Shown piece by piece: positions 30,660-55,429 of a stretch of DNA of 64,000 nt (within the stretch, counting starts at the first letter, position 1; each line of letters starts with the position of its first letter). Source of the stretch: SAR116 cluster bacterium AG-390-L20 (GTDB lineage Bacteria > Pseudomonadota > Alphaproteobacteria > Puniceispirillales > Marisalimonadaceae); NCBI GenBank assembly GCA_003278095.1, contig QCHB01000004.1:124001-188000 (forward strand). The letters run 5' to 3'. The notes under the pieces are model-generated. The model worked only from the letters and a program-made list of their open reading frames with translations. It did no database searches and was not told where the DNA came from. The translations under genes were made by a program, and so were the position numbers.

Positions 30660-30980
30660 ATGAAGTCCAAATTTGTTTTTTTTTCCATCATTATTTTGCT
30701 TTTGTTCTCAAACAAGATATTAGCTGACGATAAAGCTCTAGCTGGGGCTGATTTCGAATATGGTCAACATTTATCTGGAGAATGTGTTACTTGCCACAAT
30801 TCAACCGGTTTAGGTCAAGGTATACCAAAAATAACCGGAATGAAGACTGCAGTTTTTATAAAAAAAATTTTAGCATATAAAACAAAAGAAAAAGATAACG
30901 CTGTTATGCAAATGGTTGCTGACAGACTTGGTGAAGAAGAAATTAACTCACTTGCACTTTATTTAAGCAAAACTAAATAA
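30660..30980 (+). CDS. fccA: Monohaem cytochrome c, sulfide dehydrogenase cytochrome subunit (FccA/SoxE-like)
   Basis: A 106-residue secreted c-type cytochrome: signal peptide to about residue 22, one haem site CVTCH (C42, C45, H46), and a c553-like C-terminus with MQMVADRLGEEEINSLALYL. It is next to fccB and fits the cytochrome partner that takes electrons from the flavoprotein. Allochromatium FccA binds two haems; only one site is present here. The Shine-Dalgarno GGAGG lies just two bases before the ATG, unusually close. A SoxX identity was considered and not favoured, because the tail is of FccA type. Confidence 0.75.
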   Translation: MKSKFVFFSIIILLLFSNKILADDKALAGADFEYGQHLSGECVTCHNSTGLGQGIPKITGMKTAVFIKKILAYKTKEKDNAVMQMVADRLGEEEINSLALYLSKTK

Positions 30981-31049
30981 AAATAAAATTTTACTTAAAT
31001 TTAAAAGTTGTTAACATTTAACAAGTTATTAATTTTGGAGGAGGATTAA

Positions 31050-32315
31050 ATGGCCAAAATAACAAGACGTTCCTTTGTTGGTATTATGGCTGCATCAACA
31101 ACGGCACTTTCAATGCCTTCGATAGCTTTTGGAGCTCTACCAAGAGTTGTTGTTATTGGAGGAGGAGCAGGTGGAGCTACTGCTGCAAAATATATTGCAA
31201 AAGACTCTAAAGGAGCGGTAGACGTTACTTTAGTCGAAGCTTCAAAAAGATATTATACTTGTTTCTTTTCAAACCTATACTTAGGTGATTTCAGAAACTA
31301 TGGGTCAATAGGTCACAACTATTATGGGCTTGCAGTGAACCATGGAGTAAATATGGTCCATGAATGGGCATCATCAGTAAATAGCGCCGAAAAGAAAGTA
31401 TATCTTGGGTCTGGAGCCACTGTTTCTTATGACAAACTTGTTATATCTCCAGGTATTGATTTAAAATTTAATAGTGTAAATGGATATTCTCCAGAAGCAC
31501 AATCTATAATGCCTCATGCATGGAAGTCTGGAACACAAGTTCAACTGCTTAAGAATCAGGTTAAAGGTATGAAAAAAGGTGGTACATTCGTAATGGTCCC
31601 TCCACCAAATCCATATCGCTGTCCTCCTGGACCTTATGAAAGAATTTCTATGATTGCTCACCAATTTAAAAAGACTAATCCTACTGCTAAAATTGTTGTT
31701 CTTGATCCTAAGAATAAATTTTCTAAGCAAGGTCTTTTTATGGAAGGATGGCAAAAACATTATCCAGGAATGATTGAATGGATTAGTGCTGATACCCATG
31801 GTGGAATTAAAAAAATTAATACTTCAACTATGGAATTTGAAACTGATTTAGATACTTTCAAAGCTGATGCTGCAAGCGTTATTCCCGCTCAACAAGCAGG
31901 ACGAATTGCTATGAATGCCGGTGTTAATAAAGGAGATTGGTGTCCAATAGTTCCTGCATCAATGCAATCTCAAGCTGATGAAAATATCTATGTTTTAGGT
32001 GATGCATCAATCGCAAAATCTATGCCTAAGTCAGGGTTTTCAGCAAACAGTCAAGCTAAGGTTGCTGCAAATCATATAAGAGGTAGTTTAACTGGAAGTA
32101 AAGTATTTACACCTCGTTTTGCAAATACTTGCTGGTCTTTAGTAGCGACTAATGATGGTATAAAAGTTGGTGCCAATTATGACGCTAAACCTGACAAAAT
32201 AAATAAGACTAGTGGTTTTATTTCTAAAACAGGTGAAGATAGCAATTTAAGAAAAGCTACCTACGAAGAGTCAATTGGGTGGTATTCTGGTATTACATCA
32301 GACATGTTCTCATAA
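31050..32315 (+). CDS. fccB: Flavocytochrome c sulfide dehydrogenase, flavoprotein subunit (FccB/SoxF-like)
   Basis: A 421-residue FAD-dependent sulfide dehydrogenase with an N-terminal twin-arginine signal (TRRSFVGIMAAS) for folded export. The FAD-binding motif VVIGGGAGGATAAK starts near residue 34. The two redox-active cysteines expected of FccB are present, C191 in PYRCPPGPYE and C361 in NTCWSLV. It oxidises sulfide to sulfur or polysulfide in the periplasm and passes electrons to the haem subunit. A strong GGAGGAGG ribosome-binding site lies five bases before the ATG. It converges on soxB with a hairpin between. Confidence 0.92.
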   Translation: MAKITRRSFVGIMAASTTALSMPSIAFGALPRVVVIGGGAGGATAAKYIAKDSKGAVDVTLVEASKRYYTCFFSNLYLGDFRNYGSIGHNYYGLAVNHGVNMVHEWASSVNSAEKKVYLGSGATVSYDKLVISPGIDLKFNSVNGYSPEAQSIMPHAWKSGTQVQLLKNQVKGMKKGGTFVMVPPPNPYRCPPGPYERISMIAHQFKKTNPTAKIVVLDPKNKFSKQGLFMEGWQKHYPGMIEWISADTHGGIKKINTSTMEFETDLDTFKADAASVIPAQQAGRIAMNAGVNKGDWCPIVPASMQSQADENIYVLGDASIAKSMPKSGFSANSQAKVAANHIRGSLTGSKVFTPRFANTCWSLVATNDGIKVGANYDAKPDKINKTSGFISKTGEDSNLRKATYEESIGWYSGITSDMFS

Positions 32316-32327
32316 TAAAATAATAAT

Positions 32328-32358
32328 AAGAAGGTAACCACATATTGGTTGCCTTCTT
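32328..32358 (-). terminator. Hairpin terminator between convergent fccB and soxB
   Basis: Arms AAGAAGGTAACCA (32328-32340) and TGGTTGCCTTCTT (32346-32358) pair over 13 positions, the only non-Watson-Crick position being one G-U/T-G wobble, with a 5-base loop. It begins three bases past the soxB stop codon. On the minus strand it is followed by a T-rich tract (TTATTATTATTTTATT), so it should terminate the sox operon. On the plus strand the tail is weaker, but the same hairpin can block read-through from fccB. Confidence 0.82.
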
Positions 32359-32361
32359 AAA

Positions 32362-34050
32362 TTACATACCCACTATTTTAACAGCTTCTAAATTATTATT
32401 TTTTATAATTTTCTTTTCTGAAATATAATTTTCTAGCAAATTATATATTGGAGGTCCTTTAACATTTTGGTTAACTGAACCCCAACCACCTACTACATAG
32501 TTTTTATTTGATTCAAGAGGTTTGTCAGATGATATAATCCTTAAATTACTAATTCTGTTTCCCATCTTATTTTTGGGGCGACATGTATAAGTTAAGCCAC
32601 CTACTCTAACCATGTCACCACCTTGTTGAAAAAAAGGATCAGGGTTGAAGATATTATCACAAACATCTTCAAGTATTTCTTTAATCATTTTACCCGTCAT
32701 TTCAATTCTGTAAACTTCAGGATAATTCATTGATGTTTGTGAGTAAATATCATCAATTGTTATTTTTTGTCCTGGCAATAAAGTTGTACCCCATCTAAAA
32801 CCAGGACTTAAAGATATTTCTGTATCTCTTTCTCTAATGATGGTGTCGCAAATAACATCATCCCAACTGCCATTAAAATTACCTCTCCTGTAAAGTAGGG
32901 TTTCAGTTTCACCTATAACCCTATTACACTCGCTTTGATATGGAGCTCTTATTTTATTAATGAGCTTTGTCATGTCGGGATCAGGTGGGATAATATCTGA
33001 AAAAACAGGAATTAAATTAGAACTTGTATCTACAACTTTTCCATTTTTTACTTTAAGATCTATCCTTCCTAAATATTTACCGTGTGAGCCAGATGACAAT
33101 AGAAGTGTGTCTTTAATTCTTATACCCTTAGGGATAGCATCATGAGTATGACCAGTTAAAATTACGTCAATACCGTCAATCATAGAGGCTAACTTTTGAT
33201 CAACATCAAAACCATTATGAGATAAAAGAACTACAATTTCTGCACCTTGTTTTTTAGCCTTATTTACATTTTTCTGAAGAACTTCTGGTCTAATGCCAAA
33301 AGACCAACCATTCACCATATAACTGGGATTTGCGATAGGAGTATATGGAAAATGCTGTCCAATAACTGCTATACTTACTCCTCCTTTTTCAAAAAAGGCT
33401 GTACTTTCGAAAACAGGCTCGTCCCATTCAGTATCAAAAACATTACCACCTAGGAATGGATAGCCCAATTTATCAATTAATTCTTTTAAGCGATCTTGCC
33501 CAAATGTAAACTCCCAATGACCAACCATAGCTTCAGTTCGTAATGCTCTCATCACTTCAACCATGTCAGCGCCTTGAGTTTGAAGCGAAGTGTAGGATCC
33601 CTGCCATGTATCACCTCCATCCAGAAGAAGCACTTTATCATCTCCTCTTTCAGAGCGAATTGCTTTTATCAAAGTTGTTGTATGATCTAGGCCACCTAAC
33701 TTACCATATTCCATTGCCAATGGAACATAATCAACCATAGTGTGAGCATAAGCTAATGGTGTATTTGGCAATATATCAAAGTGTTTTAGAAATGCTTCTC
33801 CAATTAAATGAGGCGGTATTCCTTCAAATTTACCAACACCAAAGTTTTCAGATGGTGGTCGAAAATATACGGGTTTTAATTGACCATGCATATCAGTTAA
33901 ATGTAGGAGTGTAACCTGTCCTTTTGAGTCAAAATCTAACAGATCTTCAGTTTTGAGTTTTTGCTTTGCTGCTACAGCATTCCAAGATTTTGTAGCTAAT
34001 AGCATTGCTGAAACTGATGCTAATTGGATAAATTCACGCCTAGAACGCAT
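32362..34050 (-). CDS. soxB: Thiosulfohydrolase SoxB
   Basis: A 562-residue periplasmic metallophosphoesterase-fold enzyme that releases sulfate from SoxY-bound thiosulfonate. A twin-arginine signal (RSRREFIQLAS) heads the protein. Metal-site motifs are in order: LTDMHGQL near residue 51, LDGGDTWQGS near 144, GHWEFTFG near 175 (the SoxB-specific variant of GNHE), LLSHNGFD near 278, and LTGHTHDA near 300. It is the last gene of the soxSYZCDB run. ATG start at 34050. Confidence 0.95.
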   Translation of the reverse strand: MRSRREFIQLASVSAMLLATKSWNAVAAKQKLKTEDLLDFDSKGQVTLLHLTDMHGQLKPVYFRPPSENFGVGKFEGIPPHLIGEAFLKHFDILPNTPLAYAHTMVDYVPLAMEYGKLGGLDHTTTLIKAIRSERGDDKVLLLDGGDTWQGSYTSLQTQGADMVEVMRALRTEAMVGHWEFTFGQDRLKELIDKLGYPFLGGNVFDTEWDEPVFESTAFFEKGGVSIAVIGQHFPYTPIANPSYMVNGWSFGIRPEVLQKNVNKAKKQGAEIVVLLSHNGFDVDQKLASMIDGIDVILTGHTHDAIPKGIRIKDTLLLSSGSHGKYLGRIDLKVKNGKVVDTSSNLIPVFSDIIPPDPDMTKLINKIRAPYQSECNRVIGETETLLYRRGNFNGSWDDVICDTIIRERDTEISLSPGFRWGTTLLPGQKITIDDIYSQTSMNYPEVYRIEMTGKMIKEILEDVCDNIFNPDPFFQQGGDMVRVGGLTYTCRPKNKMGNRISNLRIISSDKPLESNKNYVVGGWGSVNQNVKGPPIYNLLENYISEKKIIKNNNLEAVKIVGM

Positions 34051-34065
34051 TAATTAACCTTAAAC

Positions 34066-34710
34066 TTATGATTTTTCTTCTTCTGGTGTAACGTCTATAT
34101 CTCTAGCTTTTCCAATGATCTTAGTTGGCACTTTACAATTTTCCATGCATGGTTTTCCATCAGTGTTAGCAATGTCTGGTCTTGGATCAGGTAGTAAAAA
34201 GCCTTTTTGGTTTGGCATTTTTATTTTTCCAATATTTTTTTCCGACAAAACAAAATCTTCTTCTATGATCTCGTTCATATAAAGAAGATAAGCAACTATC
34301 TGATATGTTTCATCATGCGTTAGTGATTGCGCAACACCAAAAGGCATTGCGCGATAAATATAATCATACATTGTTGATGCATAAGGCCAGTAACTTCCAG
34401 TAGTTTTTACAGGATCGTGAGTATCAAGACTACCTTCACCACCAACTAACTCTGGCCATCTATCAACACCTTCACCAAAATCCCCATGACAGGCAGCACA
34501 CTGTTCTGCATAAACTTCTTCACCCTTAATTGCATCTCCACTTCCTTTTGGAGCACCCATACCATCAGGTCTAACATCAATGTTCCATCCAGCAATTTCA
34601 GTTTTGGTTGCTATTTTTCCTAAATTAAATTTTCTATCATCAGCATTTACAAAACTTGATAAAAAAATAAAAAAAGAAAATAATATTGAGTGCTTAACCA
34701 AGTCGAACAT
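34066..34710 (-). CDS. soxD: SoxD-like monohaem cytochrome c of sulfane dehydrogenase
   Basis: A 214-residue secreted cytochrome with one haem site CAACH near residue 55. The family-specific GFLLPDPRPDIAN segment and a Cys-rich end (CMENCK) follow. It should be the electron-accepting partner of SoxC. Characterised SoxD proteins of Paracoccus are near 380 residues with two haems, so this is a short one-haem form. The ATG at 34710 has AAGG upstream with good spacing and is preferred over the ATG at 34725. The gene overlaps soxC by 17 bp. Confidence 0.85.
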   Translation of the reverse strand: MFDLVKHSILFSFFIFLSSFVNADDRKFNLGKIATKTEIAGWNIDVRPDGMGAPKGSGDAIKGEEVYAEQCAACHGDFGEGVDRWPELVGGEGSLDTHDPVKTTGSYWPYASTMYDYIYRAMPFGVAQSLTHDETYQIVAYLLYMNEIIEEDFVLSEKNIGKIKMPNQKGFLLPDPRPDIANTDGKPCMENCKVPTKIIGKARDIDVTPEEEKS

Positions 34711-35971
34711 TATCAACCTTACCATCAGAATTTACCAGCCATGTTGCAATAGAATTATTATGGTAAATTGAGTTAACGCCTCTAATTTTTTGAAGCTCTT
34801 GGATAGTTGGTTGAACATAATTTGTTTCATCAATAGCTCTAGATTGTATAAGTAGCTCTTCTCCGTTCCATTCAAAAGGAAAGGTAAAACGAGCTACACT
34901 TTTGCTCAATACAGGGTCATGTAGTTTTGCAGTTTTCCAATTTTTTCCACCATCCAAAGAAACATCAACTCGTGAAATTTTACCTCTACCTGACCAAGCA
35001 AGGCCTCTTAATTGATGAACACCTTTATTCAAAATTGGTTTTTCAGGACTAGGAGAAGTAACTACAGATTTAGCATCCATAACCCAAGTAAACATTCGTG
35101 CGTTTCCTTCAGGTAACAAATCAGTATATTTTGAAGTTTCTTCACGTGTCATATAAGGCATATCTCCAAACTCAAGCCTTCTTAACCACTTCACCCACAT
35201 ATTACCTTCCCAGCCTGGTACAACAAGCCTAGCTGGATAACCTTGTTCTGATCTCAAAGCTTCTCCATTCATTGCCCAAGCTATCATGCAGTCATCAAGT
35301 AATTTTTCAATTGGTATAGACCTTGTCATACCAGAAGAATCACTCCCTTCAGCTAAAACCCACTTCGCTTTTGGCTTTAAACCAGTCTCTTGAATTAAAT
35401 CTGATAATTTAACCCCAGTGTATTGGACATTGTGAACCATACCAAAAGTATATTGACATCCATTTAACTGAGAGCCTTTCCATTCCATACCACCATTAGC
35501 AGCACACTCTAAAAAGTAAAATTTATTTGTTTGTGGAAATCTTTTAAGATCTTCCAAAGTGAAAATCATTTCTCTATCAACTAAACCATTAATCATGAGA
35601 CGATAATCTTTAGGATTTATTATTGATACGCCTCCATGATGCCTTTCAAAACACAACCCATTAGGAGTAACTATACCCTCTAAATCTTGAATAGGAGTAA
35701 AATTTACTGAAGACTGACTACTTGCAGTTAACCATTCTACATTTCTACGGATGACATTTTCTTCAAACTGTGATGGCATTCCATAAGGATTAACATCCAC
35801 ACCGTCTCCAAGCTCACCAGTCCACTCAGGCACATTAGGTGGTAAGTTCTTAGAGGAAACTTGTTTAGCAAAAACTGAATTGGATGCCGCCGCCATGGCA
35901 CCTAAAGAGGCTGAACCAACTAAGAGTTCTCTTCTATTTAGTTTTAAACTTTGTTTTTTATCTTTCTTCAA
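34694..35971 (-). CDS. soxC: SoxC sulfane dehydrogenase, molybdenum subunit
   Basis: A 425-residue molybdopterin protein of the sulfite-oxidase fold. A twin-arginine signal (NRRELLVGSASLG) lies near residue 13. The Mo-ligand cysteine is in FLECAANGG near 150, and a C-terminal dimerisation domain has VSLDGGKNW. With SoxD it removes six electrons from the sulfane sulfur on SoxY, so that thiosulfate goes fully to sulfate without sulfur globules. Start is TTG at 35971 with AGGT upstream; no other in-frame start precedes the Tat signal. Confidence 0.94.
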   Translation of the reverse strand: MKKDKKQSLKLNRRELLVGSASLGAMAAASNSVFAKQVSSKNLPPNVPEWTGELGDGVDVNPYGMPSQFEENVIRRNVEWLTASSQSSVNFTPIQDLEGIVTPNGLCFERHHGGVSIINPKDYRLMINGLVDREMIFTLEDLKRFPQTNKFYFLECAANGGMEWKGSQLNGCQYTFGMVHNVQYTGVKLSDLIQETGLKPKAKWVLAEGSDSSGMTRSIPIEKLLDDCMIAWAMNGEALRSEQGYPARLVVPGWEGNMWVKWLRRLEFGDMPYMTREETSKYTDLLPEGNARMFTWVMDAKSVVTSPSPEKPILNKGVHQLRGLAWSGRGKISRVDVSLDGGKNWKTAKLHDPVLSKSVARFTFPFEWNGEELLIQSRAIDETNYVQPTIQELQKIRGVNSIYHNNSIATWLVNSDGKVDNVRLG

Positions 35972-35986
35972 AGTAATACCTAAAAG

Positions 35987-36313
35987 TTACGATACGGTCA
36001 TTTTTCTGGACATATTATATTTATCTCCATTATCATCTGTCCATTCAAAATCGAAAGTTCCAGTTTTTTTTGCTTTAAATGGAAATGCTATGTAAGGATT
36101 AGTAGAAATTGATGGCTCTAAATCCATACCAAAAACTTGCTTTCCATTAAATTTTACTAAAAATTTATTAATAATTCTTTTTGGAATTTTTTTTCCATCT
36201 TTGTCCTTCATTCGACCACTATGCATTGGGTGCCTAATAAGTGTTTTAATTTCAATTATTTCATCAACTGAAGCTGTTTTAGGAACTTTTCCTCTTGGTT
36301 TTATTTTTGACAT
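35987..36313 (-). CDS. soxZ: Sulfur-carrier complex subunit SoxZ
   Basis: A 108-residue SoxZ, the scaffold partner of SoxY, with an immunoglobulin-like sheet and no signal of its own (it is exported with SoxY). The family segments LIRHPMHSG near residue 26 and AFPFKAKKTG near 80 are clear. ATG at 36313 is preferred because GGGAGG lies six bases before it; a GTG one codon earlier would be too close. It lies 12 bp downstream of soxY. Confidence 0.95.
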   Translation of the reverse strand: MSKIKPRGKVPKTASVDEIIEIKTLIRHPMHSGRMKDKDGKKIPKRIINKFLVKFNGKQVFGMDLEPSISTNPYIAFPFKAKKTGTFDFEWTDDNGDKYNMSRKMTVS

Positions 36314-36328
36314 CACAAGCCTCCCTTC

Positions 36329-36793
36329 TTAACCACCACAACCACCAATAGTAACTTTTACTTTTGATTTTGTCATGGCAAAATTACCGTTATTATATTC
36401 TGCTAATAAGTAAATATTTTGAGTTTTAGATAATCTCATTCTTGTTGTAGCGGAGCACGCTCCCATATCTGTTGTAAAAGAAAATTTAGCTACATTTGGT
36501 GCGGGATTTCCGTCAGCTAAGATATAAACAGTTTTAACGAAATCTTCTTCTGTCATTGGACTTTCAATATCAAAACTTACTTTGACCTGATTTCCATTCT
36601 CTGCAATTTCTGGAACATCAAGGAAAAGATCAACTTCTTCAACTTTAGCATTTTTACTTATTTCTTTAATTTTATTTAGAGCTAAGTTAGGTTTAGAAAG
36701 TGCATATTTTGAAAATAATACTGAGCCGGTAGTTCCTCCCAATAAATACAGAACATTTCTTCTAGATATTATTTTCATCTTAATTTGCTTCAT
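36329..36793 (-). CDS. soxY: Sulfur-carrier protein SoxY
   Basis: A 154-residue SoxY. A twin-arginine signal (ISRRNVLYLLGG) exports the SoxYZ complex. The protein ends in IGGCGG, the swinging arm whose cysteine carries sulfur intermediates between SoxXA, SoxB and SoxCD. ATG at 36793 has GGAG upstream with six-base spacing and is preferred over a TTG at 36805. It sits between soxS and soxZ. Confidence 0.95.
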   Translation of the reverse strand: MKQIKMKIISRRNVLYLLGGTTGSVLFSKYALSKPNLALNKIKEISKNAKVEEVDLFLDVPEIAENGNQVKVSFDIESPMTEEDFVKTVYILADGNPAPNVAKFSFTTDMGACSATTRMRLSKTQNIYLLAEYNNGNFAMTKSKVKVTIGGCGG

Positions 36794-36837
36794 TAATATC
36801 TCCAATTAATATTTAATCTATTAATTTGTTAATTGTA

Positions 36838-37218
36838 TTAGTTATCAATAATTTCGTCAACTTGCCACCAAAACATTTCTGGATTTGTATATCCCTCAAT
36901 ACGACCTACTTCGTTGTCATTTTTTATAAAAATAAATGTTGGGGTTATATTTGTTTTTTTTAAATCATATTTAGTATAATTAACAAAGTTTTTAACTTCT
37001 ATTCTGTGTAATGAAAATTTTTTTGCTATTTCAGTCTTAGGATATATTTTACCAATTTGTTTTTCCCACACAATGCAATATAAGCAATTTTTATCTGTTA
37101 TCATTATCATTAAAGAAGTATCTTTGGCGTCAACAGATTGAAATATTGATGTTATAAAGATAAGGAAAACAATAATAGGAGTATGAATATATTTTTTTGA
37201 AAAATGTATAGATGTCAT
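36838..37218 (-). CDS. soxS: SoxS-like periplasmic thioredoxin
   Basis: A 126-residue exported thioredoxin-fold protein: hydrophobic N-terminus to about residue 31, active-site CLYC (C45, C48), then the IYPKTEIA segment that resembles Paracoccus SoxS. SoxS keeps the SoxY arm cysteine reduced and reactivates SoxYZ. It is the first sox gene of the run and is separated from soxY by 32 bp. SoxV/CcdA, its usual electron donor, is not in the window. SoxW is the alternative name, but the sequence leans to SoxS. Confidence 0.78.
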   Translation of the reverse strand: MTSIHFSKKYIHTPIIVFLIFITSIFQSVDAKDTSLMIMITDKNCLYCIVWEKQIGKIYPKTEIAKKFSLHRIEVKNFVNYTKYDLKKTNITPTFIFIKNDNEVGRIEGYTNPEMFWWQVDEIIDN

Positions 37219-37852: not shown

Positions 37853-38428
37853 TTAATTTTTGTAATAACCGACTATGTCACCCTCAGTCGTAACACCCAA
37901 ACCATTAATAGACCTATTAACATAATTGAAATAACATATGATTTGATTAGCCTCTAAAATTTCTCCATCGTCAAGGCCTTCTTCTTTGAGATTTTGAAAA
38001 TCATTTATATTAAACTCAGAAGGATACAGTGTTAATTTTTTTGCATAAATTAATAATGCTAATTCTTTTCCTTTAAAATAATCTTCTGGCTTTTGACTTT
38101 CTAATACCAATTTAATTTTATCACTTTTATTTTTATCATTAATTAAAAAGGCAGCATTTTTCCAATGATTATCATAAGAATACTTACACTTATTAATTAT
38201 TGACACATATGAACTTATTGTTTCCTGGAACCATTGAGGAATAGTGTTTTTTTCATCATGTAAAACTGATTTATATAATTTCATGTGACCAATCATTGTA
38301 CTCGGTCTTAGAGAGTGTACGCGTAATACGTTGTCAACAGTACCGTGAGGAGTTTTAGCTTGATTAAGTGCTAAATTTAAATCCTCATCAGCATCTATTT
38401 CATCGATCATTTTTATCCACGAAGACAT
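37853..38428 (-). CDS. AhpD-like (carboxymuconolactone decarboxylase fold) peroxidase-related protein
   Basis: A 191-residue all-helical protein of the peroxidase-related AhpD-like family. The region expected to hold the CxxC...H catalytic pair reads CKYSYDNHW near residue 82, so the second cysteine is replaced by serine. Without the resolving Cys, a classical AhpD disulfide cycle seems unlikely. It precedes the prdX-like gene by 26 bp. Function unknown. Confidence 0.65.
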   Translation of the reverse strand: MSSWIKMIDEIDADEDLNLALNQAKTPHGTVDNVLRVHSLRPSTMIGHMKLYKSVLHDEKNTIPQWFQETISSYVSIINKCKYSYDNHWKNAAFLINDKNKSDKIKLVLESQKPEDYFKGKELALLIYAKKLTLYPSEFNINDFQNLKEEGLDDGEILEANQIICYFNYVNRSINGLGVTTEGDIVGYYKN

Positions 38429-38460
38429 TACTTATCCTATTTTAAGTAATATTAAGTAAA

Positions 38461-38484
38461 AAAGAGAGCCCTAGAGCTCTCCTT
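38461..38484 (-). terminator. Rho-independent terminator after the amino-acid binding-protein gene
   Basis: On the minus strand GGAGAGC and GCTCTCT pair around a six-base loop, extended by A-T pairs to about nine base pairs, and run straight into a T tract (TTTTTTACTT). It starts 11 bp after the stop of the binding-protein gene at 38496. This separates that transcript from the AhpD-like/sox run downstream. Confidence 0.88.
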
Positions 38485-38495
38485 GAAATTAGTTA

Positions 38496-39269
38496 TTATA
38501 AACCCCATTTCTGAGCTGTTTTTTTGAAAAATCCCTTTGCAATTTTAATTTTAATCCAGTGATTTACAAAGTTGATCCAAACCTGATCATTTTGCGGTAA
38601 TAACATAGCAAGAGGAGTGGGTGATCTTGGAGCGTCAATAGAAACTTCCTTAATATTCGAATATTTAGCTTTTAAGGTTGAGCCTTCTAAATTTGATGTT
38701 ACAAAGACATCTGCTCTTCCCGCCAAGACTTCTTGATAACCTCTTGCCGGGGCCTCAACGCTTTTAATTTCAGCGTTTGGAAACCATCCCTTAACAAGAG
38801 GTTCCATTGCAGTACCAAGCGTAGTTGCAACTTTAACACCTTTTTTATTAATGGAGTCCCACCCTTTAAATTTAGATAATTTATCATTTGTAGTGAATGG
38901 TTTGAAATTCACACTCAGATAACTCTCAGAAAAACCAGCTGCCTTCATTCTTGAGGCTTTTATAGATGCTGAACCAGTTATATGATATTTACCAGCAACA
39001 ACTCCATTGACTATAGTTTTCCAATCTGTGGGAACAAATTCTATTTCTACACCCATATCTTTTGCTAATTCACTCATAATATCTATATCATAGCCTTTAT
39101 ATTTATTAGTAGCAGTATCTCTTACTGAAAATGGATTAAAATCTCCTGTAGTACCTGCTTTTAATTTACCAGAACTTAATATTTGTTTTAAAGCAGACTC
39201 AGCTAAAGCAAAATTATTGACTGAAAACAAAACAAAAACTGAAACTATTAAAATTTTTATTAATTTCAT
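38496..39269 (-). CDS. Periplasmic amino-acid-type solute-binding protein (family 3)
   Basis: A 257-residue family 3 binding protein: signal peptide to about residue 23, then GKLKAGTTGDFNPF, YKGYDIDIMSELAKDMGV and a hinge GTAMEPLVK. It resembles the cyclohexadienyl-dehydratase/PheC-like branch of the fold as well as polar amino-acid binding proteins. Its permease is likely the divergent gene at 39660, with no ATPase nearby. A strong AAGGAGG lies seven bases before the ATG. It follows the yerC-like regulator gene by 10 bp and ends in a clear terminator. Confidence 0.8.
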   Translation of the reverse strand: MKLIKILIVSVFVLFSVNNFALAESALKQILSSGKLKAGTTGDFNPFSVRDTATNKYKGYDIDIMSELAKDMGVEIEFVPTDWKTIVNGVVAGKYHITGSASIKASRMKAAGFSESYLSVNFKPFTTNDKLSKFKGWDSINKKGVKVATTLGTAMEPLVKGWFPNAEIKSVEAPARGYQEVLAGRADVFVTSNLEGSTLKAKYSNIKEVSIDAPRSPTPLAMLLPQNDQVWINFVNHWIKIKIAKGFFKKTAQKWGL

Positions 39270-39279
39270 GAAAACCTCC

Positions 39280-39573
39280 TTAAAAAAGTTTATTTTTTTT
39301 ATCTAAAAATTTTTTTAACACGGAATTATAGCCGTTATGACCATACTTCATATACCTTGCAACACGACCAACAGTAGTTGTACTTACCCCGGTCTCTGCT
39401 GCTATTTGTCGATAAGGTATTTTTTTAGATAATAACCTTACAATAAGCCAACGAGTTGAAAACTCATTAATTTCCGATGGTGTACATAGATCATAAAAGA
39501 AATTTTTACATCCTTCTATATTATCTATAGAAACTATCGCCTCAAAAAGTTCATTTTCGTTTTTTGAAATCAA
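39280..39573 (-). CDS. yerC: TrpR-family regulator of the YerC/YecD type
   Basis: A 97-residue DNA-binding protein of the TrpR superfamily, YerC/YecD group. The helix-turn-helix is RQIAAETGVSTTTVGRVARY (about residues 56-75), and FFYDLCTPSEI upstream is typical of the group. Start is a TTG at 39573 with AAGG upstream; an in-frame stop lies further up and no ATG is in frame. It is divergent from the permease gene and 10 bp upstream of the binding-protein gene, so it most likely represses the transporter, possibly with an amino-acid corepressor. Confidence 0.83.
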   Translation of the reverse strand: MISKNENELFEAIVSIDNIEGCKNFFYDLCTPSEINEFSTRWLIVRLLSKKIPYRQIAAETGVSTTTVGRVARYMKYGHNGYNSVLKKFLDKKNKLF

Positions 39574-39589
39574 ATCATTTGCCTTATTT

Positions 39590-39615
39590 GTATCACTGTG
39601 TTAGCAAAGTGGTAC
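39590..39615. promoter_or_regulatory. 26-bp imperfect palindrome, candidate YerC/TrpR-type operator
   Basis: The segment runs from GTATCACT to AGTGGTAC. Compared with its own reverse complement it matches at 20 of 26 positions; the outer 8-base arms differ at one position. The outer GTA...TAC ends recall the TrpR operator. It sits in the divergent gap, 17 bp from the regulator start and 45 bp from the permease start, where it could control both directions. Confidence 0.6.
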
Positions 39616-39659
39616 AAAAAATAATTTATGTCAATTATTTTTTAAATAGAATTTTTAAA

Positions 39660-40424
39660 ATGAAAAAATATATACTTTTTCTAGCTCTTTTATTCTTAGC
39701 TGGGTGTTCATCATCAGACATATGGGGATGGTATGTAATAGATCCATCAACTAAGTCAGGTTGGAACAACATTGTTTTTTTAGCTGGAGGTTTTTCTTCA
39801 ACTATTCTGCTATCAATAATCGCTGCATTACTTTCAATCACTATAGGTTTATTAATAGCATTGCCTGGTATGTCTAATAATTACATTCTTCGATCAATCA
39901 ATAGGGTCTATGTTGAATTTGTTAGAGCCATTCCACTTTTGCCTATGTTATTTTGGGTTTTTTATGGTTTGCCGGTAATATTTAAATCTCTTGGTTTAGA
40001 TGTTAATATTGATGCATTTTGGGGGGCGGTAATAACTTTAGCTATATCTGATAGTGCTTTTACTGCTGAAATTTTTAGAGCTGGAATTCAATCAATTCAT
40101 AGAGGCCAAACAGAAGCAGCTCAAACAATTGGGTTAAACTATTATCAAACAATGAGACATGTTATTCTTCCTCAGGCAATAAAAAGAATTTTACCTCCAC
40201 TAGCAAACCAGTTTATATATATTGTAAAAATGTCAGCATTTGCATCTGTAATAGGTATGCAGGAGTTAACAAGAAGAGCAAATGAGATAGTTGTTACAGA
40301 ATATCGTCCTCTAGAAATCTACACTTTACTAATATTCGAATATTTAATTTTAGTACTAATAATTAGTTATTTTGTAAGAATGCTCGAAAAAAGAATGGGT
40401 TCTAACGAAAATCAAATAGGGTAA
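39660..40424 (+). CDS. Amino-acid-type ABC transporter permease with N-terminal lipobox-like signal
   Basis: A 254-residue HisM/GlnP-family permease. The EAA loop for ATPase contact is AAQTIGLNYYQTMRHVILPQA (near residue 155, continuing to the membrane). The N-terminus reads LFLAGCSSSDIWGWY, a signal-like helix with a lipobox-like AGC, followed by a short periplasmic stretch before the usual helices. The ATG at 39660 follows an AT-rich leader; the frame extends to 39564, but that would cross the palindromic operator and the yerC start. Partner binding protein is divergent; no ATPase is nearby. Confidence 0.82.
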   Translation: MKKYILFLALLFLAGCSSSDIWGWYVIDPSTKSGWNNIVFLAGGFSSTILLSIIAALLSITIGLLIALPGMSNNYILRSINRVYVEFVRAIPLLPMLFWVFYGLPVIFKSLGLDVNIDAFWGAVITLAISDSAFTAEIFRAGIQSIHRGQTEAAQTIGLNYYQTMRHVILPQAIKRILPPLANQFIYIVKMSAFASVIGMQELTRRANEIVVTEYRPLEIYTLLIFEYLILVLIISYFVRMLEKRMGSNENQIG

Positions 40425-40478
40425 AATGTATTCAAAATATTAATTAATTTTTAATTAAAAAATAATAAAGGGTGAGTT

Positions 40479-40814
40479 ATGGATTGGAAAGCATTTTTAG
40501 ATAAAACAAGAAAAGATTTTACGAGTTTAAGCAAAGAAATTCCAGATACGTTTAAAGGTTTTTCTATTATGGGAAATGAGGCAAAAAAGAATGCTTTAAT
40601 TGATGAAAAAACTAAAGAGTTTGTGGCTTTAGGAATAGCTATTTCAACTAGGTGTGAAAGTTGTATAGGTTTTCACGTTGAAACTCTAATAAAGCTAGGC
40701 ATGACGAGAGAAGAATTGATTGAGATTTTGGCTATGTGTTCTTATATGGGAGGGGGACCTTCAATAACTTTTAGTACCAAAGCTCTCGAAGCATTTGACC
40801 AATTAAGTAATTAA
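40479..40814 (+). CDS. AhpD-like carboxymuconolactone decarboxylase-family protein
   Basis: A 111-residue small helical protein with the intact redox motif CESCIGFH (near residue 59), as in AhpD-type alkylhydroperoxidases. These act as disulfide reductases or small-molecule decarboxylases. The start has GGGTGAG upstream. It lies 54 bp after the permease and 25 bp before a 2-oxoglutarate oxygenase gene, and is probably part of the same transcript. Confidence 0.82.
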   Translation: MDWKAFLDKTRKDFTSLSKEIPDTFKGFSIMGNEAKKNALIDEKTKEFVALGIAISTRCESCIGFHVETLIKLGMTREELIEILAMCSYMGGGPSITFSTKALEAFDQLSN

Positions 40815-40839
40815 AATTTTAAAAATGTAAGAGGAAAAG

Positions 40840-41802
40840 ATGAGTTACGCATATGCAAAGGAGTTAGATTCCAAAAAAATTCCTATTATAGATATTGCCT
40901 CTTTGAGAGATGGTTCTAATAAAATCTCTGTTGCAAAAAAATTACATCAAGCAAATAAGAATCTTGGTTTTCTTTATATTTCAAATCATGGAATATCTAA
41001 TAAAACTATCACAAAAACACGTCAGTATGGTCTGCAATTTTTTAATAAAAAAATAGAAGAAAAAGAAACTGTAAAAATCACAAAAAAACACCGTGGTTGG
41101 TTAGGCTTTGGTGGAGCCCAAATGAAAGACGATGCCAAAGCAGATTTAAAAGAAAGTTTTTTATGGGGATATCAAGATGAAAATGGAAAATCTTTCGAAG
41201 ATCACCCACTCAGAGGTCAAAATTTATGGCCATCTTTTTTACCATCTCTTCAAGAAAATTGTATGGATTTTTTTAATCAAGCTGATCTTTTAGCTAAAGA
41301 CTTATTAAAAGGATTTGCTATTGCAATGAACCTAAATGAAAACTTTTTTTTAAAAAACACCTCTAGACCACTTAGCAGAGCGTCACTAGTTTATTATCCT
41401 AGTCAACCTGAAAAAATGGGAGTAGATCAATTTGGAGTTGGACCTCATACTGACTTTGGTACTCTCACTATTTTATGCCAAGATGATGTAGGTGGCTTAC
41501 AAGTTCAGGATATAAATGGTGACTGGTTTCATGCTCCACCAATTCAAGACACTATTATTGTAAATGTTGCTGATTTATTATCTAGATGGACAGGTGGTGA
41601 ATATAAGTCTACTCCTCACAGAGTTGTCAATTCATCTACAAAAGAAAGATTATCTTTAGTTTTAGCTTTTGATCCAAATCCTGAGACAATGATCGATGCT
41701 AGAGAAGTTCATGGTAAAAGCTTTAACTCCAAAGAAGATCCAATCTCGTGTGGTGATTATCTAATATGGAGATTTGGCAAAGCGTTTTCTTACAGAAATT
41801 AA
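40840..41802 (+). CDS. Isopenicillin-N-synthase-like Fe(II)/2-oxoglutarate oxygenase
   Basis: A 320-residue non-haem iron oxygenase of the IPNS/2OG superfamily. The facial triad is H and D in GPHTDFGTLT (near residue 204) and the distal His in STPHRVV (near 266). RLSLVLAF just after provides the Arg-x-Ser 2-oxoglutarate/carboxylate site. The N-terminal IPIIDIASL strand is typical of the family. It may hydroxylate or open a small amine or ring; the substrate is unknown. It is 6 bp upstream of the M29-like gene. Confidence 0.85.
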   Translation: MSYAYAKELDSKKIPIIDIASLRDGSNKISVAKKLHQANKNLGFLYISNHGISNKTITKTRQYGLQFFNKKIEEKETVKITKKHRGWLGFGGAQMKDDAKADLKESFLWGYQDENGKSFEDHPLRGQNLWPSFLPSLQENCMDFFNQADLLAKDLLKGFAIAMNLNENFFLKNTSRPLSRASLVYYPSQPEKMGVDQFGVGPHTDFGTLTILCQDDVGGLQVQDINGDWFHAPPIQDTIIVNVADLLSRWTGGEYKSTPHRVVNSSTKERLSLVLAFDPNPETMIDAREVHGKSFNSKEDPISCGDYLIWRFGKAFSYRN

Positions 41803-41808
41803 TTTACC

Positions 41809-42864
41809 ATGGACAAAAAACTACTAAATAAAAGTATAAGTAATCTTCTTAATAATTGCGCTGAATTGAACGAGAATGATACTTTACTAATTATTTCAGA
41901 AGACTCAAAGTTTGATTGGTACGACAAAGATATTTCAATTGCAGTTTATGATTATGCAAAAAATAAATTAGGCCTCAGTACTGAATTACTAATTGTCGGC
42001 GAACCTAAAAATAATGCTAGAGATACTCTTGAAAAAATCATTGACAATTATGATTGTGCTATATTCTTTGCAAGAATTGGTGATCAAGAAAGATTTGAAA
42101 AGCCGTCATCTAATACAAAACGTATTATGTCTTATGTTAGAAATATTGATTCGCTTTGCTCCTTGTTCGCATCTACAAATTATGAGGAAATGAAGAAATT
42201 TAAAGATGTAATAAATAAAATTATTTTTGACGCTGATAATATTGAAATATCTTGTCCGTTAGGTACAAATCTAAAAGGTACAATTGATAAGAAAAATATA
42301 AATCAAAACAAAGATACTAGTATTGTTAGATTTCCGGTTGTTGTACCGTCACCAATACTTGCAAAAAATTTTTCTGGGGAAGTAGTTCTAGATGGTTACC
42401 TAACTTCAACTGGATCAAAAGTTTATGAGCCAATCAGTTTAAAAATAGAGAGCCCAGTAACTGCAACTATCTTAAATGGAAAAATAGCTAATTTAAATGG
42501 AGAAAAAAAAGTAGTTGAAAAAATTGTGAAACATTATGAAACCGTTTCAAAAATTTTTAATATAGACCATGACATTGTACATTCTTGGCATGCAGGTATA
42601 AACCCTGGTATTCATTATTCAAATTCGGTTGAGGAAAATCCTGACAGATGGTCAAATACTATTTTCCCGAGCCCAAAATATTTACACTTTCATACCTGTG
42701 GTAATTACGCTCCTGGAGAAATTTGTTGGATGATAGCTAATCATAATATAAAAATTGACAATGTACCTCTTTGGGAAAATGGAATTTTAAAAGTAGGTTC
42801 ATTTGATAAAACTATTCAACATCTTCAAAATTCGTCAGATTTGAGAAATTTGTACAATACTTAA
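41809..42864 (+). CDS. M29-like metalloprotein (aminopeptidase T / NicX-like fold)
   Basis: A 351-residue protein. The C-terminal part shows SWHAGINPG (near residue 263) and HFHTCGNYAPGE (near 297), with histidines and glutamate placed as in the metal centre of the M29 aminopeptidase fold. That fold also includes 2,5-dihydroxypyridine dioxygenase NicX, a ring-cleaving enzyme. The N-terminal half is a less conserved alpha/beta domain. In this catabolic run a ring-cleaving or hydrolytic role is more plausible than general peptide hydrolysis, but this is inference. Confidence 0.55.
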   Translation: MDKKLLNKSISNLLNNCAELNENDTLLIISEDSKFDWYDKDISIAVYDYAKNKLGLSTELLIVGEPKNNARDTLEKIIDNYDCAIFFARIGDQERFEKPSSNTKRIMSYVRNIDSLCSLFASTNYEEMKKFKDVINKIIFDADNIEISCPLGTNLKGTIDKKNINQNKDTSIVRFPVVVPSPILAKNFSGEVVLDGYLTSTGSKVYEPISLKIESPVTATILNGKIANLNGEKKVVEKIVKHYETVSKIFNIDHDIVHSWHAGINPGIHYSNSVEENPDRWSNTIFPSPKYLHFHTCGNYAPGEICWMIANHNIKIDNVPLWENGILKVGSFDKTIQHLQNSSDLRNLYNT

Positions 42865-42894
42865 TTTTAAGACAAAGTTTTGAAAGGATTATTA

Positions 42895-44199
42895 ATGAAC
42901 AATACTTACGATGCAATTATTATTGGAGCAGGTGTTATTGGATCTGCAATAAATTTTGAGTTGTCAAAAAAAGGATGGAAAACTCTAAACATCGATAAAA
43001 ATCCTGAATCAGGTTATGGATCGACATCAGCATCTTGTGCTATTATAAGAGTTCATTATTCTACTTTTGATGGCTGTGCTATGGCTTATGAGGGTTATCA
43101 TTATTGGAAAAATTGGAATAAATATCTAGAATTATCTAATGACCATGATTTTGCAAAATTTGTTGAAAGTGGTTGTATGATTTATAGAACAGAAGAGAAT
43201 GGATACTTAGATACTATAATAAATAGAGCAAAAGAACTTAATATTCCTTTTAAACTTTGGGGTCCCAATGATATTAAATCTAATTTGCCTATCGCAGATG
43301 TTCATAAATACGCACCCGTAAAAGCTCCATCAGATAGACTGTTTGGTAAACATAAAAATGAATTACTTAAAGGGGCTATTTTTTTTCCAACAGCTGGTTA
43401 TATTAATGATCCAAAATTATCTGCATATAATTTACAAGTTGCCTCGGAGCAAAAGGGAGGTAAGTTTTTATTTAATAAAGAAGTAATCAGTATAATTAAA
43501 AAAGATAATAAGGCTGCTGGAGTAGAGTTATCAGATGGTAGTAAAATTAATTCTAAAGTAGTTATTAACGTTGCAGGCCCACATTCACATAAAATCAACC
43601 AAATGGCTCAAGTTGAAAAAGAAATGAATATTAAAACAAAAGCATTAAAAGTAGAAGTGTCTCATGTATCATCTCCTAAAAATTTTGATTATGAAGCAGA
43701 TGCGTTCGTAGTGTCTGACGGTGATATAGGATGCTATAGTAGACCAGAAACAGGGAATCATATTTTAATTGGAAGTGAAGACCCTGAATGTGACGAAAGA
43801 ATATTTGTAGACCCTGATAACTGGGATGAAAATTTTACAGAGCAATGGAAAACTCAAGTATTACGCCAGGCTCAAAGATATCCTAATTTACCCATTTCTA
43901 ACAATGTAAAAGGTGTCGTTTCATTATATGACGTGACTGATGACTGGATCCCAATATATGACAAATCTGACTTACCTGGTTTTTATATGGCGATTGGTAC
44001 TAGCGGTAATCAATTCAAAAATGCTCCCGTCGCAGGAGTGTTGATGTCTGAATTAATTGAGTATTGTGAAAATGGAAATAATCACGATACAGAACCACTT
44101 ACTATTAACCTAAAGTATATTAATAAAGATATAAATTTGAAATTTTATTCAAGAAACAGACAAATCAACGAGGAGAGTAGTATGTCAGTGTTAGGCTAA
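42895..44199 (+). CDS. FAD-dependent DAO-family oxidoreductase (sarcosine/amino-acid oxidase-like)
   Basis: A 434-residue flavoprotein of the D-amino-acid oxidase / sarcosine oxidase group. The FAD motif DAIIIGAGVIGSAINFEL starts near residue 6, and GYGSTSASCAIIRVHYST near 40 is typical. The C-terminal YMAIGTSGNQFKNAPVAG holds the second flavin contact. It should oxidise a secondary or alpha-amine. ATG at 42895 follows AAAGGA with good spacing and is preferred over a TTG at 42880. It ends 7 bp from the convergent coxG. Confidence 0.85.
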   Translation: MNNTYDAIIIGAGVIGSAINFELSKKGWKTLNIDKNPESGYGSTSASCAIIRVHYSTFDGCAMAYEGYHYWKNWNKYLELSNDHDFAKFVESGCMIYRTEENGYLDTIINRAKELNIPFKLWGPNDIKSNLPIADVHKYAPVKAPSDRLFGKHKNELLKGAIFFPTAGYINDPKLSAYNLQVASEQKGGKFLFNKEVISIIKKDNKAAGVELSDGSKINSKVVINVAGPHSHKINQMAQVEKEMNIKTKALKVEVSHVSSPKNFDYEADAFVVSDGDIGCYSRPETGNHILIGSEDPECDERIFVDPDNWDENFTEQWKTQVLRQAQRYPNLPISNNVKGVVSLYDVTDDWIPIYDKSDLPGFYMAIGTSGNQFKNAPVAGVLMSELIEYCENGNNHDTEPLTINLKYINKDINLKFYSRNRQINEESSMSVLG

Positions 44200-44206
44200 A
44201 AATAAT

Positions 44207-44656
44207 TTAATTTTTATCTTTTTCCATATATTGTCTAAAGTTTTCAAAAAAAGTTTTAGATAATTTTTTAGCTGTACTTAAAATTAAACGGCTCCCAAGT
44301 TGAGCAATTTTTCCTTTGACTTCGCTCTTAGCAACATACTTTAATATGGTTTGTTCACCATCTTTGGTCAACTCAACATCAGCTCCACCTTTAGCAAATC
44401 CAGCAACACCACCATCTCCTTCTCCAGTAAGTGAATATTTTGTAGGACCATTGGATAAATCTAAAGTAACTTTTCCCTTAAACTTAGCTTTTATAGGGCC
44501 AATTTTCAAAACAACCTTTGCAGATAATTTGCCATCATCTTCTTCAATAAGTTCTTCACAACCAGGGATACATGATTTTAATACCTCAAGATCGTTTAAT
44601 GACTTATAAACTAATTCCAATTTTGCTGGTATTGTAATTTCATCGTTAAGTTCCAT
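44207..44656 (-). CDS. coxG: CoxG, CO dehydrogenase-associated SRPBCC protein
   Basis: A 149-residue START/SRPBCC-fold protein. It has LEVLKSCIPGCEEL near residue 28 and the ADVELTKDGEQT segment typical of CoxG. CoxG is needed to attach or organise CO dehydrogenase at the inner membrane face. It is the last gene of the cox operon and, unlike longer CoxG forms, has no C-terminal transmembrane helix visible. ATG start at 44656. Confidence 0.88.
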   Translation of the reverse strand: MELNDEITIPAKLELVYKSLNDLEVLKSCIPGCEELIEEDDGKLSAKVVLKIGPIKAKFKGKVTLDLSNGPTKYSLTGEGDGGVAGFAKGGADVELTKDGEQTILKYVAKSEVKGKIAQLGSRLILSTAKKLSKTFFENFRQYMEKDKN

Positions 44657-44686
44657 GATTTTCTCCGATTTACTTAAATTTAATAT

Positions 44687-45478
44687 TTAAAATTTTTTAC
44701 TTCCAATTTTACCAGATCTTTTTAACTCAATTATTTCTGCAAAAATTGACAAGGCTACTTCCTCGGGCATAATTGCATTTATAAAAATTCCTGCAGGACA
44801 AATTATATCTTTTAATTTTTCTTGCGACACACCGTCATCTATTATTTTCTTTTTTAAAGCTTGATATTTTTTTTGGCTTGCAACAAGGCCGATATAAGTT
44901 GCTTTTATCTTAAGCGATTCTGTTATTGCTATTAGGTCTGAGTTACCCTGAGTAGCTATAACAATATATTTCTCCGAAAATTCATTTAAATTATTATTAT
45001 TATCGTCTTGAGAGTTTCTAACATGAACTACATTAAAGCTATATTTCTCGCCAAATTTGACTAATTCATTTGCAATTGGTGTATTACCATAAATTATTAA
45101 TTCTGATTTAGGATAAAAAGGCTCAACAAAAATATCCATTGAACCTTCACTAGGACAATAATTTTTTTTATGAAAAGTTTGATCACTTTTTAATTCGTCC
45201 AAATCTTCTTTGATATCGTCTGGACTTAAAACAACTAATTTGGGTTTTTTTAAATTTAATGTTTCTAAAGCTGTATTACGTACAGCGTTCGTAACACATC
45301 CACCTCCAAGCCAACCTGATAATATTTCACCTTTGTTTGAAATTATCGCTTTCATGCCAGGTTTTGCAGCAGTTGACGACATAGTTCTAATCACAGTAGC
45401 AATTACAAATGAAGATCCCTTATTTTCAAGAGTTTTCAAAACATTTTCAAAATTTATTTTTTCATCATTATTTGTCAT
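44687..45478 (-). CDS. coxF: CoxF, XdhC/CoxI-family molybdenum-enzyme maturation protein
   Basis: A 263-residue XdhC/CoxF-family protein. SAAKPGMKAIIS and GWLGGGCVTNAVRN (near residue 53) form the conserved N-terminal XdhC region, followed by a Rossmann-like C-terminal domain. It should help insert the sulfurated/copper-bearing Mo-cofactor into CoxL. ATG at 45478 overlaps the coxE stop in an ATGA; an alternative ATG at 45487 lies inside coxE. Operon position after coxE supports CoxF. Confidence 0.82.
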   Translation of the reverse strand: MTNNDEKINFENVLKTLENKGSSFVIATVIRTMSSTAAKPGMKAIISNKGEILSGWLGGGCVTNAVRNTALETLNLKKPKLVVLSPDDIKEDLDELKSDQTFHKKNYCPSEGSMDIFVEPFYPKSELIIYGNTPIANELVKFGEKYSFNVVHVRNSQDDNNNNLNEFSEKYIVIATQGNSDLIAITESLKIKATYIGLVASQKKYQALKKKIIDDGVSQEKLKDIICPAGIFINAIMPEEVALSIFAEIIELKRSGKIGSKKF

Positions 45479-46668
45479 ATCATACATAATTCTTTTTCTA
45501 AATTTTCTAAATCTTCTATAGTACTACAAGGCGCAAATAAATCTAAATACGAAGATGCTTCTTTCATGCTAGCAGCAACTGGTTCATAATTCTCCCATCC
45601 AAGAAGAGGATTTAGCCAAATTATTTTACAATTTCTCTTTTTTAATTTTTCAAGTTCTTGCGAAACAATTTTTGGACTTCCTGTGTCGTAACCATCAGAA
45701 ATAATAATAACAACTGTTCTACCATTAACTTGGTTTTTTGAATAAACATTATTAAATTCTTTTAATGACTTTCCAATTTTAGTACCGCCCGAAAATCCCT
45801 CTGTAAGTAAAGAAATCCTATTAACCGCTTTTAAAGTGTCATTTTCTTTAAGATGTTCTGTAACTCTCATCAATCTTGTGTGAAACAAATATATATCTGC
45901 AGATTGATCAACACCTACCAAACCTTTAACAAAAGTTAAAAAAATCTGACTATATACCTTCATAGATCCCGATATATCTAATATACTTACTATTCTCATC
46001 GGCTTTTTAGGCTTACTTTTTTTATACAGTTTAATAGGATATCCTTCATAGGCTAATGATTTACTAACAATTTTCCTTAAGTCTAATTTAACACCTTTTC
46101 TATCTGCTATTAATCGTCTTGATCTTTTATGTTTAATTGACTTAGCTATTTTCAAAACAGCTGAATGTATTCTTTTTTGTAAATCAGAATCAATTAGTTC
46201 TTTTAAATCTGTTTTCTTTTTGTTTTCTATGAAACTGGCAGTTATTTTAGACACTGCATTGCTAGACGCTTCCATTTCGTTTTCGTTATTAGTCATGAAT
46301 TTATTTGTTGATTCATTGTCAAGTGTACCTTGCTCGGGAGGGGCAAAAATACTTCGAGTATTAATTGAGTCGTTATTTTTATTATTATTTTGTCTTTGGA
46401 TATTTGTTTTTTTTCTTCCTTCATTTGTCCAGAAGGAATCGAACAATTCATCAAATTTTTCATATGTATCAAAGTTGTAACAATAAATTGATTTAAGAGC
46501 ATTTTTCCATTCTTGTATTTTAGACAAATCAATATTTTGCAAACCATTAAGAGACTGAGTTACCTGTTCAAAGGAAGTATTAAAACCGTTAGCAAACATG
46601 TGATGACTAAAGTCTAACAACCTAGAAGTTTTGGACGACCTTAACAGAAATTTTGTAGGTTTAAGCAT
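45475..46668 (-). CDS. coxE: CoxE, von Willebrand factor A-domain protein
   Basis: A 397-residue VWA-containing CoxE. The C-terminal VWA domain has the metal-ion-dependent adhesion site LDISGSM at D231, and later SGGTKIG and SDGYDTG. The middle region near 110-150 is low-complexity. With CoxD (a MoxR ATPase) it assembles the [CuSMoO2] centre of CO dehydrogenase. It starts 2 bp after the coxD stop. Confidence 0.9.
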   Translation of the reverse strand: MLKPTKFLLRSSKTSRLLDFSHHMFANGFNTSFEQVTQSLNGLQNIDLSKIQEWKNALKSIYCYNFDTYEKFDELFDSFWTNEGRKKTNIQRQNNNKNNDSINTRSIFAPPEQGTLDNESTNKFMTNNENEMEASSNAVSKITASFIENKKKTDLKELIDSDLQKRIHSAVLKIAKSIKHKRSRRLIADRKGVKLDLRKIVSKSLAYEGYPIKLYKKSKPKKPMRIVSILDISGSMKVYSQIFLTFVKGLVGVDQSADIYLFHTRLMRVTEHLKENDTLKAVNRISLLTEGFSGGTKIGKSLKEFNNVYSKNQVNGRTVVIIISDGYDTGSPKIVSQELEKLKKRNCKIIWLNPLLGWENYEPVAASMKEASSYLDLFAPCSTIEDLENLEKELCMI

Positions 46669-46669
46669 A

Positions 46670-47539: not shown

Positions 47540-47557
47540 TTTTGTTTATCAGCTAGA

Positions 47558-50484: not shown

Positions 50485-50498
50485 ATCTTTCCCCTTAA

Positions 50499-52531: not shown

Positions 52532-52546
52532 TTACTAGTTTAACTT

Positions 52547-52579: not shown

Positions 52580-52594
52580 TTAAAAGGTGGTTAT

Positions 52595-55354: not shown

Positions 55355-55429
55355 ATTTTAAGAATGTTGGTTGAATTCAAAGTTACGAATAATCTTCCGA
55401 AATCGTTATCTACCTTTATTTGTGAAGTT

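Follow-up and report, generated by a model that had tools for sequence, protein, structure and literature searches.

How does a Sox pathway run without SoxXA, the thiosulfate-loading cytochrome that is usually taken as its point of entry? The question is raised by a locus in a 64,000-nucleotide stretch (the window: positions 124,001 to 188,000 of contig QCHB01000004.1) of SAR116 cluster bacterium AG-390-L20 (Puniceispirillales), in which the genes stand in the order soxS-Y-Z-C-D-B, with fccAB convergent to them and neither soxX nor soxA in sight. The SoxXA gap is genuine and the remaining genes are under purifying selection. The best explanation, to which we would give somewhat better than even odds, is that this is a SAR116 Sox operon minus SoxXA, SoxV, SoxW and SoxH, in which SoxYZ, SoxCD and SoxB have been kept working, probably fed with sulfide via FccAB. 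As far as sequence can tell, the locus is real, functional-looking and an interesting test case.

A first-pass annotation of the window had proposed the eight sox and fcc genes, their order and a 15-base gap between soxZ and soxC, all of which were borne out:

36838-37218, minus strand: soxS-like periplasmic thioredoxin, 126 amino acids, thioredoxin fold (PF13098; PDB 3d4t/3dml, E 9e-12)
36329-36805, minus strand: soxY, sulfur carrier with a C-terminal GGCGG swinging arm (PF13501, 105.3 bits, cut-off 28.4; PDB 2ox5_Y)
35987-36316, minus strand: soxZ, partner of SoxY (TIGR04490, 106.6 bits, cut-off 76)
34694-35971, minus strand: soxC, sulfane dehydrogenase molybdoprotein (TIGR04555, 627.4 bits, cut-off 420; PDB 2xts_A, E 2e-161)
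34066-34725, minus strand: soxD, monoheme cytochrome subunit, 219 amino acids, one CxxCH (PDB 2xts_B, E 2e-60)
32362-34050, minus strand: soxB, thiosulfohydrolase (TIGR04486, 817.5 bits, cut-off 550; PDB 2wdc)
30660-30980, plus strand: fccA, monoheme cytochrome c subunit of flavocytochrome c (PF00034, 23.9 bits; PDB 5n1t_B, E 1.4e-8)
31050-32315, plus strand: fccB, flavoprotein of flavocytochrome c sulfide dehydrogenase (PF21706 and PF09242 over cut-off; PDB 5n1t_A, E 2e-107)

The gene soxD overlaps the 3' end of soxC. No NCBIfam model named SoxD, SoxS or FccA, which were identified by their Pfam domains, their location and their matches to PDB entries; 2xts is Paracoccus SoxCD, 3d4t/3dml Paracoccus SoxS, and 5n1t a Thioalkalivibrio flavocytochrome c. 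The nearest soxC sequences are 97-99% identical and come from single cells of the SAR116 cluster or of uncultured alphaproteobacteria.

Is SoxXA absent from the organism, or only from this locus? The window belongs to a genome of 2,226,049 bases that is 93.1% complete, and it was compared with 61 relatives (completeness 52-100%), 37 of which, own genome included, form its genus. The SoxA profile (TIGR04484) finds nothing in the own genome, and neither SoxA nor SoxX (TIGR04485) has a match in any of the 37 genus genomes; among all 61 relatives SoxA was found in 5 and SoxX above cut-off in 6, none of them from this genus. SoxB, meanwhile, matched in 31 of the 61, and 22 of these belong to the genus, the own genome again included. 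Given completeness, about 16.7 SoxA hits would be expected in those 22 if soxA were present, and the rough chance of missing it in all of them is about 10^-15, on the assumption that genes go missing independently. The profile itself performs: among 58 genomes of the class it matched in 11, in 9 of them above the cut-off, and it matched in 37 of the 42 searched genomes holding a related soxC, a set to which L125 does not belong; 14 named control genomes had no SoxA match and were hence unusable as a control. The five soxC holders without SoxA are the SAR116-like L081, L087 and L093 and the metagenome-assembled genomes (MAGs) L108 and L127. Outside the window's genus, G095 and G102 have SoxB and SoxC with no match to SoxA or SoxX, and G102 is listed as 100% complete.

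Single genomes do miss genes, as G117 illustrates (88% complete, 380 contigs, SoxX present, no SoxA match). With the own genome at 93.1% and some relatives far lower, soxXA could be imagined in an unassembled part, yet its absence from every one of the 37 genus genomes, including the 22 that have soxB, and from G102 leaves that idea a practically negligible probability. The gap is genuine because no SoxA or SoxX is found in the own genome or the genus, while the same SoxA search succeeds in 37 of 42 soxC holders; a hidden soxXA elsewhere in the genome is ruled out by these searches together. The first-pass annotation had raised the possibility that the genome lacks soxXA and had named soxXA elsewhere in it as the finding that would reduce the case to a rearranged locus; none was found in this genome, at 93.1% completeness, or in the 22 genus genomes with a soxB match.

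Set beside a complete Paracoccus-type system (in Paracoccus pantotrophus, SoxXA-YZ-B-CD with SoxS, SoxV, SoxW and SoxEF), the locus shares homologues of SoxYZ with the GGCGG arm, SoxB, SoxCD and SoxS, and has a flavocytochrome nearby, but lacks SoxXA and has no SoxV, SoxW or SoxH in the operon. The branched, sulfur-globule Sox type without SoxCD is likewise incomplete; here, as the annotation had pointed out, the gap is the opposite one, soxC and soxD both being present. The fcc genes encode the flavoprotein domains of flavocytochrome c sulfide dehydrogenase (FCSD) together with a cytochrome subunit, and resemble the monoheme enzyme of PDB 5n1t in FccB and monoheme FccA, with the difference that they are convergently linked to sox.

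What was lost can be read against SAR116 loci that retain SoxXA (L092, L094, L095, L142, L144 and L145; all fetched sox loci were annotated with profiles built for the analysis). Their skeleton is soxS-X-Y-Z-A-V-W-C-D-(cytochrome)-H-B, rearranged in L092 to C-D-...-B followed by S-X-Y-Z. By names assigned by eye in L094 and L095, the soxA-soxC interval holds a CcdA-like, soxV-like membrane protein and a soxW-like thioredoxin, and the soxD-soxB interval a soxH-like protein of metallo-beta-lactamase fold; a small cytochrome c precedes the soxH-like gene in L094 and L092. With the DsbD_TM profile, a soxV-like gene adjoins soxA in G105, G111, G112, G114 and G116; in G000, G058, G064, G071, G079 and G102 a single long DsbD-type frame is all that remains, and G095 has none. 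The spacings agree: soxS-soxY measures 0-202 bases where SoxXA is missing and 596-693 in the six XA-positive loci; soxZ-soxC does not exceed 43, compared with 2404-2457 in all but one of the six (the sixth is rearranged); and soxD-soxB is 0-21 in most XA-less loci, with six at 61-497, against 988-1367. Because XA-positive SAR116 relatives keep the same skeleton, X, A-V-W and H have dropped out of the SAR116 operon.

The remaining genes stay linked. Of 44 distinct XA-less loci, 35 retain all eight genes as an intact block and 39 include FccB; the five without it break off 1.6-3.8 kb past the soxC start, short of where fcc would lie. L077-L079 depart from the convergent layout in having fccAB and sox on one strand. 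A conserved extra partner beside the operon was sought and rejected: no non-overlapping gene is common to all 13 XA-less loci compared, and the widest-conserved extra hits are antisense frames over the sox genes. Some XA-less loci do carry neighbors of their own. An ArsR-type regulator resembling SoxR lies upstream of soxS in L087, L089, L090 and L091, and none was found beside the operon in the window's genus; a cupredoxin-like protein, possibly an electron acceptor, lies beside sox in the XA-less L069 (8168-8707), L072, L090 (11962-12375) and L091.

Are these genes still in use? Ratios of nonsynonymous to synonymous substitution (dN/dS) in six XA-less pairs are 0.01-0.21 for SoxB, 0.03-0.07 for SoxC, 0.02-0.11 for SoxD, 0.04-0.29 for SoxY, 0.17-0.31 for SoxS and, apart from one pair, 0.00-0.04 for FccB, and the GGCGG end of SoxY is kept throughout the 40 XA-less rows, of which four are duplicates, as in all 38 others. 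The XA-less core is under purifying selection, and pseudogenization is ruled out by dN/dS and intact frames. That the pathway is degenerating and on its way out appears very unlikely: 15 of the 37 genus genomes have no soxB match, though their mean completeness is low, and low GC content is found in the genus, yet every gene is under purifying selection, the block is mostly intact, and the XA-less lineage is long-lived and spans several families. Monoheme SoxD as an adaptation to SoxXA loss was also discarded, one CxxCH being commonest in XA-positive loci too (30 of 38 rows). SoxY has a second cysteine in its body (GACSA), with one such residue in all 40 XA-less and all six XA-positive SAR116 loci and none in 26 of 31 others; the Hyphomicrobiales-type L106, L117 and L131 have one in a similar place. 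It could pair with the arm cysteine or relay to it.

How, then, might sulfur enter? Entry of sulfide through FccAB, which the annotation had offered as an example, is judged the likeliest route. FccAB would oxidize periplasmic sulfide to a persulfide or polysulfide, which would be transferred to the SoxY arm cysteine; SoxCD would oxidize the outer sulfane to a sulfonate, SoxB would hydrolyze this to sulfate, and SoxS would keep the arm usable. The sulfide may derive from dimethylsulfoniopropionate by way of methanethiol and methanethiol oxidase. We infer these chemical steps, the sulfur source and the non-use of thiosulfate; the loss of SoxXA is probably tied to feeding on sulfide instead of thiosulfate. 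FCSD matches occur in 21 of the 22 soxB-bearing genus genomes, and methanethiol oxidase (PF05694) in 19 of them and in 36 of the 61 relatives, own genome included. Polysulfurated SoxYZ is reported to be a good Sox substrate (PMC5336275). In Campylobacterota, soxCDYZ without XAB has been linked to oxidation of elemental sulfur, with direct polysulfide loading proposed and a Sulfurimonas strain with only a soxCDYZ cluster cited (PMC10045233). All sequenced Sulfurimonas genomes are said to encode soxXYZAB, and strain CVO is noted not to use thiosulfate (PMC4584964). The Campylobacterota soxCDY2Z2 cluster (PMC10045233) is like the present one in pairing CD and YZ without XA and in the proposed direct uptake of polysulfide; it differs in lacking soxB and in usually having a separate soxABXYZ in the genome, whereas SAR116 keeps soxB in a single locus.

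Several observations weigh against a sulfide-fed cycle of this kind. Reconstitution with Paracoccus proteins found that SoxYZ pre-loaded by sulfide treatment still needs SoxAX, a result that by the authors' account no model explains (PMC5336275), so that Paracoccus proteins do not sustain the proposed cycle. Likewise, a significant fall in hydrogen sulfide took the whole set of six recombinant Sox proteins and was not reached without SoxX plus SoxA (PMC5371076, Table 2). We found no protein that would pass sulfur from Fcc on to SoxY. Methanethiol oxidase occurs in 8 of the 15 genus genomes without soxB as well and is therefore not a specific partner. SoxY scores 113.7 bits against NCBIfam TIGR04488, under the cut-off of 125, and FccB reaches a dN/dS of 0.61 between the window and L055, where the L055 frame is broken.

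The Paracoccus requirement for a SoxXA-type function even with sulfide, together with the use of SoxXA by 35 of 37 Sox-bearing relatives outside SAR116, speaks for another explanation, that some unrelated cytochrome or sulfurtransferase encoded away from the operon stands in for SoxXA and thiosulfate is still loaded and oxidized. We regard this as unlikely: besides fccA and soxD no cytochrome gene is conserved beside the operon in the 13 loci (other c-type cytochromes were not catalogued), and H. denitrificans without SoxXA and SoxYZ cannot oxidize thiosulfate (PMC11582611). It also seems quite unlikely that SoxCD, SoxYZ and Fcc serve a side use, such as sulfite oxidation or sulfide detoxification, with no full cycle to sulfate. 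SoxC is related to sulfite dehydrogenases, and sulfite is also allowed for in PMC12262181; SoxB and the GGCGG arm, however, are strongly constrained and would be unneeded by a sulfite dehydrogenase alone.

Did the XA-less system arise once? In a tree of SoxB and SoxC (55 rows, 38 XA-less) the XA-less SAR116 rows fall on one side of a branch with a Shimodaira-Hasegawa-like approximate likelihood ratio test (SH-aLRT) value of 99, and in a tree of SoxB, C, D, Y and Z (25 rows, 15 XA-less) they do so with support of 100/100; the XA-positive L092 adjoins them with 90 and 99/98, respectively. The XA-less core is one molecular lineage within SAR116. The claim is made for SAR116 only, owing to L127, which falls outside SAR116 in another tree and is absent from the outgroup rows of both trees above; L108 was left out because its soxB is too short. 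L127, a Neomegalonema MAG, carries a locus with soxS, Y, Z, B, C and D and fccAB and no SoxA match in the MAG; it is possibly an independent XA-less case, or a product of incompleteness.

The organisms tell a different story. In an rpoB and gyrB tree of 19 genomes, with outgroup frames chosen by BLAST, XA-less L089, L087 and L091 group with XA-positive G112, G105 and G114 (nodes 95-100), and uniting the XA-less rows is rejected by the approximately unbiased test (p-AU 0.0065); on single genes the values are 1e-6 and 3e-5, but there the outgroup rows were wrong frames for the GC-rich outgroups. L088 sits on a long branch drawn to the outgroup, a placement we do not trust. Conversely, the sox data reject uniting the eight rows of that mixed family (p-AU 2.4e-8), and genome grouping independently places G102, the XA-less L087, in one genus with G105, G112 and G114. 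Because the sox trees conflict with rpoB/gyrB and with the genome grouping, sox operons have probably passed from one SAR116 family to another, or else the pattern reflects the sorting of an old duplication; the direction of transfer cannot be fixed by two marker genes. In the FccB tree the unlinked fccB of G105, G112 and G114 groups, weakly (66/83), with L087 and L089-L091, which fits later uptake of an XA-positive sox operon by G105, G112 and G114. The conflict stands in contrast to PMC12262181, where soxB and fccB were inferred to descend vertically in SAR116; a literature search combining SAR116, soxB and horizontal gene transfer found no paper.

Over acnB-fcc-sox the window is 98-99% identical to G169, against 86% at the rpoB and gyrB loci. 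Along the contig (G000:C4:84001-188000 against G169:C5, 2-kb bins), identity is a mosaic of 83% to 99%, with a median of 93.8% and 15 of 43 bins at or above 96%. Recombination between the two species is strong; given this mosaic, nothing special is claimed for sox, and a recent selective spread of the block between close species is not proposed. Within the same high-identity stretch, close to sox, lies an aerobic CO dehydrogenase cluster (44207-51368, minus strand) made up of a coxL whose AYRCSFR motif is that of form I, of coxS and coxM, and of accessory genes. The segment at 51677-55514, with amino-acid ABC transporter genes and an amidohydrolase, has 44% GC in a 31% GC genome and looks like a recent insertion; a tRNA gene (55433-55514) lies beside it, and the G169 alignment stops at 51514. 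A 6.2-kb block of transporter and enzyme genes (37962-44211) is absent from the site in L057, L059 and L060.

How much of this is new? The first-pass annotation had called the pathway possibly undescribed, which does not hold: the SoxXA-less gene pattern is already published, SAR116 subclades II and III having been reported to carry soxCDBYZ without soxAX, with fccAB supplying sulfur from sulfide (PMC12262181, ISME J 2025). The present locus has that suite in the same clade, with the same missing soxAX and proposed sulfide source, and does not differ from it in gene content; that paper was the only source found to describe the present case in a search on Sox systems without soxXA or soxAX. AG-899-J15 (locus L069) is its representative of subclade III (PMC12262181), and the window's genus would correspond to subclade II. 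What this analysis adds is an account, gene by gene, of what was lost and the disagreement of the sox trees with those of the organisms.

For the biology of these abundant surface-ocean bacteria, the consequence is that thiosulfate oxidation should not be inferred from their sox operons, the reading that an earlier survey gave to the SAR116 operon (PMC8547437). A natural lineage that does without SoxXA while selection maintains YZ, CD and B makes the unexplained Paracoccus requirement testable. A bolder proposal, which we hold tentatively and doubt rather more than we believe, is that SAR116 has a self-sufficient, SoxXA-independent sulfane-oxidizing machine, loaded directly with persulfide by FccAB, of single origin and passed between SAR116 families with fccAB, and that genus g64 later regained thiosulfate use by acquiring a full XA-positive operon, its fcc gene being left behind at a separate site. 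In that case, the need of persulfurated SoxYZ for SoxXA in Paracoccus would lie with the particular proteins and would not be dictated by the chemistry.

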